DNA from: Verrucomicrobiota bacterium
GTDB lineage: Bacteria > Verrucomicrobiota > Verrucomicrobiia > Opitutales > Opitutaceae
DNA: 57,587 bases
Reading direction: 5' to 3'
NCBI GenBank assembly: GCA_947471035.1
Contig: CANIWJ010000007.1
Span: forward strand, 1 to 57,587
Below the pieces are notes generated by a model that was not told where the DNA came from, searched no databases, and saw only the letters and a program-made list of their open reading frames with translations. This document shows, in pieces, positions 16,935 through 32,117 of the stretch. The translations under genes were made by a program, and so were the position numbers. Positions within the stretch are counted from its first letter, which is position 1. The number at the start of each line of letters is the position of its first letter.

Positions 16935-18908
16935 ATGGCCTACGCCCCCCACTCTTCCACGCCCGATCGCGCCGGCTCGATGGTGGAGTCCCATCGCGGT
17001 TACGACCCCCGCCTCTGGCTTTTCTACGGCCTCGCCGTACTCCTCCTCGGCGTGCTCGCCGCCGGTCTGGCTTACCAACAACTCGGCCGCACCAATGAAC
17101 ACCGCGAACGCGAAACCGTGCAAAGCCAGCGCCGTGTCGTCATTCCCGGCCCCCGCGGCAACCTCTTCGACCGCGAGGGCCGCCTCCTCGTCGGCAACCG
17201 CCCCCGCTTCGCCGTCACCCTCAATCTCGACGAACTCCGCTCCGAATTCCGCAAGGAATACCTCCGCATCCGGCGCAACTACCGCGACAGCGGCGACAAG
17301 GATCTGCCCACCGCCGCGCAAATGGAACGCATCGCCCGCGTCTCCGTTGTCCAAGGCTACCTCAACATCGTCAACCGCGCCCTCGGCACCCGCCACCGGG
17401 TTGACGACGACGTCCTCGACCGCCACTACCGCCAGGCCCGCATCCTGCCCTACCTCCTCCTCGAAGACATCAGCCCCTCCGATTACGCCCGGCTCCTGGA
17501 ACAACTCCCCGTCACCTCGCCCCTCCAGGTTTACACCGCCAGCACCCGTAACTACCCGCACGGCTCCCTCGCTTCCCACACCCTAGGTTATACCGCTGCG
17601 GACGATGACCTCGCCGTCGGTGCCGACCTGCCCGGCGCCGACCTAACCACCTTCAAAATGCGCGGCAGCATCGGCCGCCAGGGCCTCGAAGCCGCCCTCG
17701 ACGCCCGTCTCCAAGGCCAGGCTGGCGGTGCCATCTACCGCGTCGATCCGGCCGGTTACCGTATCCAGCCTCCGTTACAAAAACGCCGCCCGGTGCAGGG
17801 CGGCGACGTCGTGGTGAGCCTCGACCTCGATCTCCAACGCGCCGCCGAAGCCCAGCTCTCCGAAACCGGCCTGGCCGGCGCCGCCGTCGCCCTCGACATC
17901 GCCACCGGCGAAGTCCTGGCCCTTGTAAGCAAACCCGACTACGACCTCAACGCCTTCACCCCCCGCCTCTCCAACGAGACCGCCGCCGACATCCAGACCC
18001 GCGGTGCCTGGATCAACCGCGCCACCCAGGGCCTTTACCCGCCCGGCTCCACCTTCAAGCTGCTCACCGCCATCGCCGGCCTGCGCAGCGGCCATATCCA
18101 GCCCGACTCCAGCGTCGAATGCACCGGCACCTACCGCGTCGGCGGCCGCATCTTTGTGTGCAACAACCACCGTGACCGCGGCACCGTCACCCTCTCCCAG
18201 GCGATCGAGAAAAGCTGCAACACCTTCTTCTACGACCACGGCCTGAAAACCGGCATCGACGCCATCGCCGCCGAAGCCCGCCGCCACGGCCTCGATGCTC
18301 CCACCGGCCTGGAACTTCCCTTCGAAGCGCGCGGCATGCTCGTCCCCGACCCCGCTTGGAAAGAAACCCGCCGTCAAGAACGCTGGTTCCCGGGCGACAC
18401 CGCCAACGTCTCCATCGGCCAGGGCGACCTCGCCCTCACCCCGCTGCAAATGGCGTGTTTTGTCGCCTCGCTCGCGCGCGGCGAGACCACCACACACCCC
18501 ACCCTCCTTCACCACCCCGATGCCCCGCGCCAGCACAGCGAGCCCGACAGCCTCACCCCCGCGCAACGCGGCGCGATCCTCGCTGGCATGGAAGCCGTGA
18601 CCAACACCGGCACCGGCCGCATCCTGCAAACCCCGCGCTACCGCGTGCCCGGCCTGCGCCTGGCGGGCAAGACCGGCACCGCGCAAAAACGCACCCCGGA
18701 AGGCACGCTCAACTTCGCTTGGTTCGTGGGCTTCCTGCCGATTGACAACCCGCAGATCGCCATCGCAGTGATCGTCGAAGGCGACACCCCCGGTGAAGAT
18801 GTTGCGGGGGGCCGCTACGCCGCCCCGGTGGCAGGCGCGATCATCAAAGCCTGGGCCGACAAATCCGTCCGCTACGCCCCCCTCCCGACCGTAGCCCCCT
18901 CCCCCTGA
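16935..18908 (+). CDS. mrdA: penicillin-binding protein 2 (elongasome transpeptidase)
   Basis: Monofunctional class B PBP of 657 residues, the transpeptidase partner of RodA in lateral wall growth. One membrane anchor lies near residues 32-55 (LWLFYGLAVLLLGVLAAGLAY). A PBP dimerisation domain with RRVVIPGPRGNLFDREGRLL follows, then the catalytic domain with Ser372 in PPGSTFKLLTA, the SxN motif S427-C-N and KTG at 579-581 (AGKTGTAQK). The frame is open upstream inside mreD; the ATG at 16935 fits the family N-terminus and 16980 is an alternative. RodA, often next in this operon, is absent from the window. Confidence 0.94.
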   Translation: MAYAPHSSTPDRAGSMVESHRGYDPRLWLFYGLAVLLLGVLAAGLAYQQLGRTNEHRERETVQSQRRVVIPGPRGNLFDREGRLLVGNRPRFAVTLNLDELRSEFRKEYLRIRRNYRDSGDKDLPTAAQMERIARVSVVQGYLNIVNRALGTRHRVDDDVLDRHYRQARILPYLLLEDISPSDYARLLEQLPVTSPLQVYTASTRNYPHGSLASHTLGYTAADDDLAVGADLPGADLTTFKMRGSIGRQGLEAALDARLQGQAGGAIYRVDPAGYRIQPPLQKRRPVQGGDVVVSLDLDLQRAAEAQLSETGLAGAAVALDIATGEVLALVSKPDYDLNAFTPRLSNETAADIQTRGAWINRATQGLYPPGSTFKLLTAIAGLRSGHIQPDSSVECTGTYRVGGRIFVCNNHRDRGTVTLSQAIEKSCNTFFYDHGLKTGIDAIAAEARRHGLDAPTGLELPFEARGMLVPDPAWKETRRQERWFPGDTANVSIGQGDLALTPLQMACFVASLARGETTTHPTLLHHPDAPRQHSEPDSLTPAQRGAILAGMEAVTNTGTGRILQTPRYRVPGLRLAGKTGTAQKRTPEGTLNFAWFVGFLPIDNPQIAIAVIVEGDTPGEDVAGGRYAAPVAGAIIKAWADKSVRYAPLPTVAPSP

Positions 18909-18942: not shown

Positions 18943-18974
18943 CCCAGCATCAAGTAACCTATTAGGTTACTTTG
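18943..18974. repeat. palindromic repeat unit, copy A
   Basis: About 32 bases centred on the dyad AGTAACC-N5-GGTTACT. The same unit, including the flanking CCCAGCATCA on the left, occurs inside the RND pump gene at 30316-30348, and as its reverse complement at 30249-30270. It begins 34 bases after the PBP2 stop and could also form a small stem after that operon, although no U-run follows it. Confidence 0.75.
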
Positions 18975-19128: not shown

Positions 19129-19205
19129 GGACGCCTAGCTCAGTTGGTTAGAGCACATCCTTCACACGGATGGGGTCACAGGTTCGAGTCCTGTGGCGTC
19201 CACCA
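19129..19205 (+). tRNA. tRNA-Val (CAC)
   Basis: A 77-base cloverleaf. The acceptor stem GGACGCC pairs with GGCGTCC, and the D-arm is GCTCAGTTGGTTAGAGC. The anticodon stem CATCC/GGATG encloses loop TTCACAC with anticodon CAC at 19163-19165. The T-arm is ACAGG-TTCGAGT-CCTGT, discriminator A, and CCA is encoded. It stands alone between the PBP2 gene and the convergent anti-sigma-like gene. A GCCCT/AGGGC stem lies about 25-60 bases upstream. Confidence 0.97.
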
Positions 19206-27631: not shown

Positions 27632-28659
27632 AACCGCGCCTCTCCGCCGCGCTGCGCACCAGCGCCGCCGCTATAACCCTCGCCTTCGCCGCCTGCCGCC
27701 CGACCACGCCGGGCCCGGGCAGCGCCACCCTTGCACCGATGGCCGTCACTACCGCCCCCGTGCGCGCCACCACCGAGACCCGCACCCAGTCGCTGGCCGG
27801 CACCGTCCGCCCGCTCCACCAAGCCCTCGTCGCCGCCCGCATTCTTGGCACCGTGACCCGCGCCGACCTGGCCATCGGCCAGCGCGTATCCGCCGGGCAA
27901 CTGCTCGTGACTCTCGACGCCGCCGAGCTGGCCGCGCGCGTCACCCAGGCCGAGGCCGCCCTCGCCCAGGTCGTCGCCGACCACGCCCGCGAGCTCGCCC
28001 TCCTTGCCAAGGGTGCGACCCCCGCCGCCACCGTCAGCACCCTCGGCGACCGCCGCCATGCCGCCGAGGCCGCCCTCGCCGAGGCCCGTGCCCTGCTTGG
28101 CTACACCGAGATTCGCGCCCCTTTCGCCGGTTCCATCTCCCGCCGCTACATCGATCTAGGCGACCTCGCCGCCCCCGGCACCCCGCTCTTTGCACTCTCC
28201 GGTGACACCGAACTGCGCGCCGAAATCGAGATACCCGCCACGCTCGCCCTGCCCTCCCTCGGCGCCCCCATAAGGCTCACCCTGTCCGGCGGCACCGTCA
28301 CCGGCGCGCTCGCAGAACTCGCCACCGCCTCCGATCCGCACACCCGCACCCGCCTGGCCAAGATCGCCCTACCAACCGAGGCGGCCGCCCGCGCAGGCGA
28401 CTTCGTAAAAGCCGCTTGGCCCGCCGGTTCCAGCGCCACGCTCACCCTTCCCGCCACCGCCCTGAGCCCGCTCGGCCAGATGGAACGCGTCTTTGTGGTT
28501 CAAGCTGGCCTCGCCCGTCTGCGCCTCATCAAAACCGCCGGCCCCTCGGCCGATCCCACCCAAGTTAATGTAGCCGCCGGTCTCGAAGCGGGCGAAATCG
28601 TTATCCTCGCCCCCTCCCCCGCCCTGCGCGACGGACAACCTGTAAGCCTCCTGCCGTGA
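27628..28659 (+). CDS. RND efflux periplasmic adaptor (MFP/HlyD family) lipoprotein
   Basis: A 343-residue membrane-fusion protein. The N-terminus is a lipoprotein signal with Cys in LAFAACRPT. The lipoyl half-motifs are LAGTVRPLHQALVAARILG and YTEIRAPFAGSISRRYIDLG, split by an Ala-rich helical hairpin (about 95-150). Beta-barrel and membrane-proximal domains follow. It joins the inner-membrane pump to an outer-membrane channel, but no TolC-like gene is in the window. The ATG at 27628 overlaps the upstream stop, and its own stop overlaps the pump GTG, so coupling is tight. Confidence 0.92.
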   Translation: MKPRLSAALRTSAAAITLAFAACRPTTPGPGSATLAPMAVTTAPVRATTETRTQSLAGTVRPLHQALVAARILGTVTRADLAIGQRVSAGQLLVTLDAAELAARVTQAEAALAQVVADHARELALLAKGATPAATVSTLGDRRHAAEAALAEARALLGYTEIRAPFAGSISRRYIDLGDLAAPGTPLFALSGDTELRAEIEIPATLALPSLGAPIRLTLSGGTVTGALAELATASDPHTRTRLAKIALPTEAAARAGDFVKAAWPAGSSATLTLPATALSPLGQMERVFVVQAGLARLRLIKTAGPSADPTQVNVAAGLEAGEIVILAPSPALRDGQPVSLLP

Positions 28660-31600
28660 ACCCGCCCGTGCCCCACGCCTACGGTCTGGCCGGACGCCTC
28701 GCCGGCATCGCCGTCAGCTCCAAGCTCATCCTTATCGCGGTCATCGCCTCGATGTTACTCGGGCTTTTCGCCGTCATCCAGTTACCCCGCGAAGAGGAGC
28801 CGCAAATCAAGGTGCCCATGGTCGATGTCTTTGTCGGCCTGCCCGGAGCCACGCCCGCCGAGGTGGAAAACCGCCTCACCCGCCCGCTGGAAAAACTGCT
28901 CTGGGAAATCCCCGGCGTGGAGTATCTCTACACCACCTCTTCGCCCAGCCAGGCCTTGATCATCGTGCGCTTCGTGGTCGGCACCGACCTCGAAGCCGCG
29001 CTCGTCCGCCTAAATCAAAAACTGGCGATGCACGCCGACCGCACACCGCTCGGCGCCACGCCCCCCTTGGTCAGGCCCCGCACCATTGACGACGTCCCCA
29101 TCCTCGCACTCACCCTGCACAGCCGGGTGCACGACCACCTCACGCTGCGTCGCCTCGCAGCTCAAATGGACGACGCGATCAAGTCCGTGCCCCAAGTTGC
29201 CGAAACCACCCTCATCGGCGGCACCCACCGCGCGCTGCGTGTCACCCTCGCCCCCGCCGCCCTCACCGCGCGCGGCCTCACCGTCGCCGACATCGCACCC
29301 GCTCTCCAAGCCGCCAACCGCCCCGTCTCCGCCGGTTCTCGACCCTTCGCCAATCAGGAAATCCTGCTCGAAGCGGGTAACTTCCTCGCCGACGCCAGCG
29401 AGGCCGGCGCGGTCATCCTAGGAGTTTTCGCCGACCGCCCCATCTACCTGCGCGACGTCGCCACCCTGGCCGACACCGCCACCGAACCCGCCGACTACGT
29501 TCTCCACGGCGACGCCTCCGGTGAACTCGAAGCCGCCGTGACCCTCAGCGTCGCCAAGCGCCCCGGGGCCAACGCCATCACCGTAGTCGAGCAGGTCCTA
29601 TCAAAAGTCGAGGCCCTACGCGGCACCCTGCTTCCCTCCGACGTCACTCTCACCATCACCCGCGACTACGGCCATACCGCCGCCGAAAAAAGCGACGAAC
29701 TCCTGTTCCACATGGGCATCGCCGTTTTCGGCGTAGCCGTGCTCATCCTGCTCTTCCTCGGCTGGCGCGAATCCCTCGTCGTGCCACTCGCCATTCCCAC
29801 CACCCTCGCGCTCACCCTGTTCGTTTTTTACCTCTACGGCTACACTCTCAATCGCATAACGCTCTTCGCGCTGATTTTCTCCATCGGCATCCTGGTGGAT
29901 GACGCCATCGTGGTGGTGGAAAACATCGTCCGCCATCTGCGCCTGCCCGGCGGCGAAAAAAAATCCCTCGGCCAGATCGCCCTCGAAGCGGTGGACGAAG
30001 TCGGCAACCCCACCATCCTCGCCACCTGGGCGGTTATTGCCGCCATCCTGCCCATGGCCTTCGTCGGCGGCCTCATGGGCCCCTACATGCGCCCCATCCC
30101 CATCGGCTCGACCGCCGCGATGCTCTTCTCCCTGGCCATCGCCTTCACCATAACGCCTTGGGCCGCCGTACGAGTCCTCCGCCGCCGCGCCGCCTCCCTC
30201 GTCCCCTCGCTCGCGACTCTCCCCGCCGCCCCCACCCCACCCCCAGCCCAAAGTAACCCAATAGGTTACTCGACGTCGGAGCCACCCCCGACGCACCTCT
30301 TAAAAACACCGACTACCCCAGCATCAAGTAACCTATTGGGTTACTTTGCTCCGGGGGCTGGCGCGTCTGCGGTCGCGTCTCCTGCGGGTGTTCCATCAGG
30401 CTTAACGGCCCCCATATCCGCAGCCTCCGACGCCCGCGATCACGACCACGCGCCGTCCGATTGGTTCACCTGCCTCTACCACCGTGCCATGGACCCGCTG
30501 CTCGACCGTCCGCGCGTTCGCTGGGCCTTCCTCGGCGGCATCTTCGCCCTGCTCCTCGTTGCCATCGGCTTCGTTCTCACCGGCGCGGTCACGATCAAAA
30601 TGCTGCCCTTCGACAATAAGTCGGAGTTCCAAATCGTGCTCAACACCCCCGAGGGCACCACCATCGAACACACCACCCGCATCGCCACCGAAATGGCCGC
30701 CGCCCTCCGCACCCAGCCCGAGGTACGCGACTATCAGATCTACGCCGGCACCTCCGCCCCGTTTAATTTCAACGGCCTCGTCCGCCACTATTTCCTGCGT
30801 CGCGGTCCCAACGTCGCCGACATCCAGGTTAACCTCGTCCCCAAACACGAACGCGCCGACCAGAGTCACGCCATCGCCAAACGCACCCGCGAGCTCGTCG
30901 CCCCCATCGCTGCCCGCTACGGGGCCGCCGTCGCCGTGGCCGAGGTGCCGCCCGGCCCTCCCGTGCTCCAATCCCTCGTCGCCGAAATCTACGGCCCCGA
31001 CGAATCCCAACGCCTCGCACTCGCCCGCGAAGTCCGCGACCGCCTGGCCAAAGCCCCCGGCGTCGTGGACCTCGATTGGTATGTCGAAGCCGACCAGACC
31101 AAGGTGCGCTACGTGATCGACCGCGAAAAAGCCGCCCGCCACGGCATCACCGCCGACGACATCGCCCGCACCCTCGTCCTCGGCGCCCAAGGCGCGACCA
31201 TCGACCGCCTCCGCCTGCCCGACGAACGCGAGGACGTGCCCATCATCCTCGAACTTTCTCCCGCCGACCGCGCCGACCCCACCACCGTGCTGGCCCTGCC
31301 GATACGCTCCGCCCGCGATTCCTCCGCTCCCGCGATCCCGCTCTCCGAGCTGGTCAGCCTGCGCACCGAGACCGGCTCGCGCTCGCTTTATCGCAAAAAC
31401 CTCAAACCCGTCACCTACGTCACCGCCGATGTCGCCGGCGCGGTCGAGAGTCCCGCCTACGCCCTCCTCCCGCTGCACTTCGCACTCTCCGAGATCGACG
31501 CCCGCCTCTTCGGAGGCACCGAGGCGCGCCTGCCCATCTACCACCTCAACCTGCCCCCCGCCGACCAAGGGCCCGCGCTGAAATGGGACGGCGAATGGCA

Positions 31601-32117
31601 CATCACTCTGGAGGTGTTTCGCGACCTCGGCCTGGCCTTCGTCGCCGTGCTCATTCTCATCGCCATGCTCATGGTTGGCTGGTTCAAGAGCTACGTCACC
31701 CCGCTGGTCGTCATGGCCGCCATTCCGTTTTCGCTCATCGGCATCCTGCCAGCCCACTGGGCGCTGGGGGCATTTTTCACCGCCACCTCGATGATCGGCT
31801 TCATGGCCGGCGCGGGCATCGTGGTGCGCAACTCGATTATCCTGGTAGATTTTATCGAACTGCGCCGCTCCCACGGCCTGAGCTTGCGCGACGCCGTGGT
31901 CGAGGCCGGCGCGGTTCGCTTCCGTCCCATGCTTCTGACCGCTTTGGCGGTCATCGTCGGGGCCAGCGTGATCCTCGCCGACCCCATTTTCCAAGGCCTC
32001 GCGATCAGCCTCATGTTTGGCGAGATCGCCTCGCTCCTCATCAGCCGCATGGCCGTGCCCGTGCTCTACTACATGGCCAACTCCCGATCCACAACGCCCG
32101 CCGCAAGCGCCACCTAA
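28656..32117 (+). CDS. RND efflux pump inner-membrane subunit with in-frame repeat insertion
   Basis: A 1153-residue resistance-nodulation-division permease. Landmarks are the first helix LILIAVIASMLLGLFAVI, porter-domain NRLTRPLEKLLWEIPGV, the helix-4 segment GILVDDAIVVVENIVRH whose acidic residues carry protons, and a matching second half with GFMAGAGIVVRNSIILVDF. It is about 100 residues longer than AcrB. The extra length falls in the central cytoplasmic linker (about residues 515-590), is Pro/Ala/Ser-rich, and contains a pair of palindromic repeats at residues 532-565. It starts with GTG overlapping the adaptor stop. The substrate is unknown. Confidence 0.93.
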   Translation: MNPPVPHAYGLAGRLAGIAVSSKLILIAVIASMLLGLFAVIQLPREEEPQIKVPMVDVFVGLPGATPAEVENRLTRPLEKLLWEIPGVEYLYTTSSPSQALIIVRFVVGTDLEAALVRLNQKLAMHADRTPLGATPPLVRPRTIDDVPILALTLHSRVHDHLTLRRLAAQMDDAIKSVPQVAETTLIGGTHRALRVTLAPAALTARGLTVADIAPALQAANRPVSAGSRPFANQEILLEAGNFLADASEAGAVILGVFADRPIYLRDVATLADTATEPADYVLHGDASGELEAAVTLSVAKRPGANAITVVEQVLSKVEALRGTLLPSDVTLTITRDYGHTAAEKSDELLFHMGIAVFGVAVLILLFLGWRESLVVPLAIPTTLALTLFVFYLYGYTLNRITLFALIFSIGILVDDAIVVVENIVRHLRLPGGEKKSLGQIALEAVDEVGNPTILATWAVIAAILPMAFVGGLMGPYMRPIPIGSTAAMLFSLAIAFTITPWAAVRVLRRRAASLVPSLATLPAAPTPPPAQSNPIGYSTSEPPPTHLLKTPTTPASSNLLGYFAPGAGASAVASPAGVPSGLTAPISAASDARDHDHAPSDWFTCLYHRAMDPLLDRPRVRWAFLGGIFALLLVAIGFVLTGAVTIKMLPFDNKSEFQIVLNTPEGTTIEHTTRIATEMAAALRTQPEVRDYQIYAGTSAPFNFNGLVRHYFLRRGPNVADIQVNLVPKHERADQSHAIAKRTRELVAPIAARYGAAVAVAEVPPGPPVLQSLVAEIYGPDESQRLALAREVRDRLAKAPGVVDLDWYVEADQTKVRYVIDREKAARHGITADDIARTLVLGAQGATIDRLRLPDEREDVPIILELSPADRADPTTVLALPIRSARDSSAPAIPLSELVSLRTETGSRSLYRKNLKPVTYVTADVAGAVESPAYALLPLHFALSEIDARLFGGTEARLPIYHLNLPPADQGPALKWDGEWHITLEVFRDLGLAFVAVLILIAMLMVGWFKSYVTPLVVMAAIPFSLIGILPAHWALGAFFTATSMIGFMAGAGIVVRNSIILVDFIELRRSHGLSLRDAVVEAGAVRFRPMLLTALAVIVGASVILADPIFQGLAISLMFGEIASLLISRMAVPVLYYMANSRSTTPAASAT
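30249..30348. repeat. paired inverted palindromic repeats inside the RND gene
   Basis: Two 22-base arms, 30249-30270 and 30327-30348, are exact reverse complements, separated by 56 bases. Each arm is itself a near-palindrome with core AGTAACC-N5-GGTTACT. The right copy with its left flank CCCAGCATCA matches the intergenic copy at 18943. The layout resembles a REPIN: two inverted REP-like units moving together. The block stays in frame and encodes part of the pump's central linker. Confidence 0.85.

Follow-up and report, generated by a model that had tools for sequence, protein, structure and literature searches.

Short hairpin-forming palindromes dispersed in Opitutaceae and occasionally placed in frame within genes

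Introduction

Among the repeats that most resemble the one considered here are the Rickettsia palindromic elements (RPEs), reportedly described by Ogata in 2000. According to the available excerpts of two accounts (PMC10969869, PMC2229807), RPEs are palindromic sequences of 105-150 bp that occur in many copies, both between genes and in frame inside unrelated conserved genes. A second precedent is provided by intragenic REPs of the GTAG and CGTC types, short hairpins that lie inside open reading frames, including both uvrA genes of Opitutus terrae (Di Nocera 2013, PMC3733652). In the excerpts available of that study, in-gene REPs of the GTAG type are most often reported in O. terrae, REP ends can provide stop codons, and two Xanthomonas species carry different REPs at about the same recB site.

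The present unit, built around the motif AGTAACC-N5-GGTTACT, was encountered twice inside an RND pump gene in a stretch of 57,587 nucleotides from an Opitutaceae genome (GCA_947471035.1, here G000); this whole stretch is referred to as the window. By analogy of behavior, rather than by sequence comparison, the unit can be called RPE-like: both are palindromic, multicopy, intergenic and in frame, and no transposase is named for RPEs in the excerpts cited above. RPEs differ, as described there, in their length and in belonging to another phylum, whereas the AGTAACC unit spans an estimated ~33-45 bp with a core of 19 bp and has dialects that interchange at orthologous sites. Literature searches, figures and supplements aside, returned no published account of the AGTAACC family. 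In-gene palindromic repeats are thus already known from RPEs and O. terrae REPs and, as far as these partial sources go, it is the exchange of dialects at fixed sites that is new, for which the Xanthomonas recB REPs may offer a hint of precedent. The reading favored here, to which a probability of roughly 70% is attached, is that the unit represents an Opitutaceae family of short hairpin-forming, REP-like palindromes that are dispersed, mostly intergenic and occasionally in frame in genes.

An inverted pair of units in the linker of an RND pump

The features of the window discussed below are as follows.

18953..18971, plus strand: third copy of the unit, centre TATTA, intergenic, with the foot CCCAGCATCA upstream
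28656..32117, plus strand: RND efflux permease gene, host of two units; 1153 aa, open reading frame open throughout
30186..30446, plus strand: expanded linker joining the two pump halves, residues 511-597, compared with five orthologues
30240..30357, no strand: the entire inverted pair; arms of 34 nt, 88% complementary, separated by 50 nt
30249..30270, minus strand: unit copy 1 in the pump, core AGTAACC-CAATA-GGTTACT at 30252-30270
30327..30348, plus strand: unit copy 2 in the pump, core AGTAACC-TATTG-GGTTACT at 30327-30345

The host is an RND permease. Pfam ACR_tran (PF00873) scores 498.5 bits over two stretches, the best of which, and the sole one located, covers residues 25-512, and the best PDB relative, MdtB (9lyq), aligns at 21-511 and, over the second half of the pump, at 791-1140. 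A preliminary description of this DNA had put the pump at about 100 residues longer than AcrB; this is correct, since the PDB listing gives AcrB chains of 1033 to 1057 residues (1049 in 1oy6) compared to 1153 here. Because the first-half alignments stop near residue 512 (512 in Pfam, 506-517 in the listed PDB relatives) and the second half restarts further on, the insert lies where it had been placed, in the linker that joins the halves. From VRVLRR to HAPSDW this Pro-, Ala- and Ser-rich linker measures 87 residues, as derived from positions, against 44 in G007, 37 in G010, 30 in L219, 20 in G008 and 13 in G006. It is therefore 67-74 residues longer than the linkers of G008 and G006, homologues in which the linker is short and no unit is found.

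Within the linker, the two exact 22-base inverted copies originally reported are indeed in frame: the reverse complement of CAAAGTAACCCAATAGGTTACT (30249-30270) recurs without a mismatch at 30327-30348, and no stop interrupts the reading frame from 28656 to 32117. Read in frame 0, the core of copy 1 encodes SNPIGYS and has a C-rich foot, CCCCAGC, immediately upstream, while the core of copy 2 encodes SNLLGYF and has the foot CCCCAGCATCA at 30316-30326. As expected of an inverted pair, the two copies fold as one hairpin: the DNA fold of 30236-30362 has an energy of -32.3 kcal/mol (z -8.5), with a single long hairpin predicted. Probably, either an inverted doublet was inserted as such or a second copy joined an older one, and the insert may be tolerated as additional linker.

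A linker shared with homologues in distant taxa had been regarded beforehand as evidence against an insertion. Such sharing is seen only within the family, where the unit or a decayed form of it occupies the same linker in L219, G007, G003 and G010. This suggests that the site is old or has been used repeatedly, and does not speak against insertion.

Copies in the window and in the genome

A scan of the window with the 19-base pattern, allowing up to two mismatches, returned three matches, all of them exact, where shuffled sequences lead one to expect 0.05. The third copy had rightly been described as intergenic, although its core lies at 18953-18971 and not at 18943; it is found 44 bases past a gene end at 18908 and ahead of a tRNA at 19129. 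Repetition extends well beyond these three, as AGTAACC-N5-GGTTACT occurs in 75 exact copies in G000 compared with none for a reversed-pattern control. A chance palindrome in an ordinary low-complexity Pro/Ala linker, a notion to which the abundance of Pro, Ala and Ser lends some color, is refuted by these two counts, as well as by the presence of the same core in the linker of L219. When up to two mismatches are allowed, G000 yields 79 matches; decayed copies are not in excess, because the mismatches add 4 while the control gives 13.

Seventy-four of the 75 copies could be located in fetched stretches, and the counts by kind of position rest on these and on genes called by a home-made codon-usage caller. 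Thirty-six copies lie between tandem genes, 15 between divergent and 6 between convergent ones, 4 are at edges and 13 overlap a gene. Of the last, 8 are inside (at 7 genes) and 5 provide a TAA stop, each ending the preceding called gene (C1:32893, C3:11731, C13:25171, C65:1391 and C66:16424; the gene called before the C3:11731 copy is short and weakly scored). With 81% of the window called as coding, the unit is strongly under-represented inside genes. The orientation of neighboring genes does not differ significantly from that around copy-free intergenic DNA (p 0.12), and a terminator or promoter role was set aside on this ground.

Anatomy of the unit

The complete unit would consist of a GTAACC-N5-GGTTAC core, a symmetric extension that varies between species and, in most G000 copies, a C-rich foot. 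The core is strictly conserved in G000, with seven-base arms that are invariant in all 74 copies and a centre that is TATTR or its complement in 72. Fifty-two of the 74 copies carry a CCCMRGC foot on one side or both, and 22 carry it on both, compared to 5.8% and 0.2%, respectively, of 1464 shifted control positions. Averaged by position over all G000 copies, arm complementarity is close to the shuffled control, yet 15/74 copies have perfectly complementary but differing arms of at least 9 bp, where 2000 shuffles give 0.85 on average and never more than 4; complementarity is thus a property of a subset of copies. Orthologous arms can also change jointly, for instance at C1:79581 in G000 and G004. 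Such covarying arms fit hairpin formation, whether through selection or template switching.

Among the three centres tested, one codon phase is open for all (SN-xx-GY), one is open for TATTG only (VTYWVT) and one is a stop. Since the open phases read so differently, no single peptide is conserved while the DNA is, and constraint may act on the nucleic acid rather than on the peptide.

Two dialects of the core recur in what follows. Type A is AGTAACC-YAWTR-GGTTACT; type B is GTGTAACC-N5-GGTTACAC, two mismatches from A. Type B numbers 24 copies in G007, 21 in G004, 4 in G003 and 1 in G001, and none in G000, G008, G010, G017 or G024.

Relation to RAYT genes and to other hairpins

The preliminary description had proposed a REPIN-like mobile unit that became protein-coding and had suggested a search of the genome for a RAYT gene. 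One is present on contig C33 of G000 (L118:2769-3269(-); NCBIfam NF047646, 91.9 bits against a cut-off of 80), while the other of the two Y1 transposase proteins scores 57.6, below that cut-off. Together with this gene, the palindromic and repeated nature of the unit, the hairpin-folding inverted doublet in the pump and at least 4 spaced doublets of ~45 bp in G017 would agree with a REPIN mobilized by RAYT and turned coding. The RAYT gene, however, is flanked on both sides by a different hairpin, the GTAG-tagged GTGTAGCG-TTGGCCGTCCCCGGCCAA. With up to two mismatches this family gives 87 hits, 60 of which form 30 inverted pairs with starts 44-76 bp apart, and the TTGGCCGTCCCCGGCCAA family fits the expected profile of the REPIN population of G000.

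The AGTAACC unit differs from the RAYT-flanking family in pairing, tag and neighborhood. Only 14/74 copies, forming 7 pairs, lie within 300 nt of each other; the remaining 60 are outside such pairs. No copies flank the RAYT gene, and no GTAACC-N3..7-GGTTAC core was found in 31 loci around PF01797 matches (2 in G000, 29 in relatives), these being the only hits given a locus; linkage of the unit to RAYT was rejected accordingly. Nor is there a fixed terminal GTAG tag: GTAG or CTAC falls within 20 nt of the core in 8/74 copies, at no repeated offset, and CGTC or GACG is near it in 17/74, counted irrespective of offset. A RAYT-driven origin is consequently judged quite improbable. What survives of the initial proposal is that the unit is repeated (75 copies), in frame and coding; as a REPIN in the strict sense it fails on pairing and on RAYT linkage.

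Set beside the published descriptions, the pump pair resembles a REPIN, as portrayed in the excerpts of PMC3116915, in being an inverted doublet that folds as a hairpin, whereas the unit at large consists mostly of singlets with no RAYT link found. Its likeness to the GTAG and CGTC REPs of PMC3733652, again in excerpt, lies in hairpin repeats within open reading frames, including uvrA, and in repeat-supplied stops; it differs in having no fixed tag, no convergent enrichment, a C-rich foot instead and no link to a Y1 gene among the loci searched. With the REP families of O. terrae the comparison is one of description, not of the sequences in Figure 1 of that paper.

Other mobilizers fared no better. 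Phage origin was discarded, as neither A nor B had an exact match in viral_contigs, and so was an autonomous element enclosed by near copies, the six genes between them being unlike transposases by eye. An Rfam scan of 12 sources yielded nothing that attained the gathering score other than the two tRNAs of the window. Neither a transposase nor an intermediate nor a target-site duplication was found for the unit, so we infer its mobility from presence and absence. Some factor, not obviously the RAYT of G000, would then spread it.

Two further observations concern Y1 loci of relatives. On contig C1 of G010, at 723729-725730, there are three consecutive, equal-scoring Y1 transposase matches in steps of 836 bases. 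Separately, a locus of G004 cut around a Y1 gene (L135, 1359-1388) contains a hairpin that starts with TGTAG and has a stem of 13 bp; it may represent another GTAG REP family.

Taxonomic distribution

The exact A pattern is present in 6 of 38 searched genomes, G000 included, and was found 0 times in G002, G003, G005, G006, G008, G009 and G011-G014; G003, G006 and G008 nevertheless carry other dialects. A wider scan took in 84,980 species, with one genome apiece. The matches listed include 80 loci, from at least 101 stretches, and all 80 cluster taxonomically, being titled Opitutaceae, Opitutus, Opitutia, Rariglobus, Cephaloticoccus, Verrucomicrobia or Verrucomicrobiota.

Host genes and their orthologues

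In G000 the in-frame hosts are the RND pump (twice), TatD, an asparagine synthase, UvrA, an SNF2 helicase and a CysJ-like flavoprotein. Orthologues were taken from 8 genomes of the genus, and for the pump also from L219 (titled Opitutus sp. GAS368; aligned) and other loci; row counts include G000. States were read from protein alignments, and for CysJ in G004 from a DNA alignment.

RND pump, 7 rows: G000 has two A copies and L219 one A-like copy within a long palindrome; G007 and G003 have B and G010 a decayed copy; G008 and G006 have none
TatD, 9 rows: G000 has A, G004 and G007 have B, the copy of G008 is decayed, and five rows lack the unit
AsnB, 5 rows: two have A and three lack the unit
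UvrA, 7 rows: one has A, G004 has three B copies, and five lack the unit
SNF2, 4 rows: one has A and three lack the unit
CysJ, 5 rows: G000 has A, G004 has B and G006 a different core; G013 and G008 have no exact core

Unit-free orthologous states were found for every in-frame host, least clearly for CysJ. The unit thereby behaves as a protein-coding palindromic element, being both intergenic and in frame in conserved genes of which unit-free orthologues exist, and the family would occasionally insert in frame at permissive places of genes. An exact core is also found in a CzcA-like gene (C3:29584); its centre is odd, it lacks a clear foot, and it was not counted as an insertion.

Across the named genomes (L208-L287), 15 of 99 cores are inside open reading frames and 8 at gene ends; the 99 include records of G004, G007 and G010, and some of the inside cases are at an open reading frame edge that is itself open (L254, L279). 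By eye, the same sites are used elsewhere, namely UvrA in L242, SRAP in L233 and L249, and a glycoside hydrolase 2 in L215, L241 and L283. In-frame unit doublets, 78 bases apart, were also noted in other genomes, at L264:6460-6554 and L281:6461-6555. L189, from the isolate IMCC26134, likewise has two copies in frame, predicted to read SNLIGYF and SNLLGYF.

Dialects at orthologous sites

Core uniformity is not general. With up to two mismatches, G004 gives 82 matches, 74 of which are exact A (53) or B (21), against 8 for the control. In G007 there are 47 matches, comprising 11 exact A, 24 B and 12 beyond these (control 6), and some of its copies are decayed; G010 has 22 matches, 12 exact and several with one mismatch (control 13); G017 has 24, 13 of them exact (control 6), with mixed flanks and centres. 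Copies in G007, G010 and G017 are, in short, mixed, decayed or one mismatch away. G008 carries 15 GTAACC-N5-GGTTAC palindromes, and 5 of the 8 examined have TTT..AAA flanks.

Forty-four G000 copies could be bridged to G004 (mean flank identity 91%), and there the core is again strictly conserved: 37 sites have an exact A core, 4 a B core, 2 an A core split by an insert, and 1 is empty. The shared fraction is biased upwards, because the stretches of G004, G007 and G010 were chosen for carrying copies. The split type A cores, at two loci of G004 (L157 and L171), contain a nearly identical insert of ~130 bp that may be a miniature element targeting the palindrome.

Differing dialects occupy the same orthologous site in at least 7 cases, and the sites with other dialects in relatives include the pump linker, TatD, UvrA and CysJ. 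Such cases are what independent insertions of two unrelated repeat families at common hot spots would produce, but this explanation seems unlikely. A and B copies share the outer arms CCCCCCGGC and GCCGG at TatD, where their apex differs, and they have one outer arm, GCTTRGGG, in common at CysJ. Moreover, one family is suggested by the cores themselves, since a symmetric lengthening by two bases and another centre separate A from B.

Selection, re-copying and the dearth of decayed copies

Within one dispersed family, the factor that spreads the unit may also re-copy it, so that an existing site changes dialect. The dearth of decayed copies in G000 is equally compatible with such re-copying and with purifying selection on a useful site. 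Indeed, it is quite conceivable, though we lean somewhat against it, that the palindrome is a functional site of old spread rather than a selfish one, under purifying selection for binding a dimeric protein, organizing the chromosome or forming an RNA hairpin. The core is the same at 37/44 bridged G004 sites while intergenic flanks diverge, dialect differences are symmetric and keep the dyad, and arms covary, all of which would be expected of such a site. Its difficulty is that, within one genus, some genomes have exact A copies and others do not, that the unit is read in two frames of unrelated housekeeping proteins, that promoter or gene-end bias is not significant and that single sites differ in dialect.

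A more doubtful proposal is overwriting at fixed addresses, whereby a non-RAYT factor would re-copy the current dialect into existing sites, those in housekeeping genes included. One or two apex dialects would then prevail wherever the factor is active (A in G000; A and B in G004), and the outer stem and reading frame would be kept, in a gene-conversion-like drive acting on units of ~20-25 bp. Counting against it are the mixed or decayed copies in G007, G010 and G017. A dispersed Opitutaceae family that occasionally enters genes in frame remains the preferred reading.

Implications

Two families of hairpins can be told apart in a single genome, one of which flanks a RAYT gene while the other has no known mobilizer. 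One route by which proteins acquire new segments is through palindromic repeats inside their genes. Across species of one genus, addresses that include some in UvrA, TatD, CysJ and an RND pump are found without the unit, with a decayed copy, or with two or more dialects; since these states occur at the same addresses, the gain, exchange and loss of such segments can be ordered on a tree.
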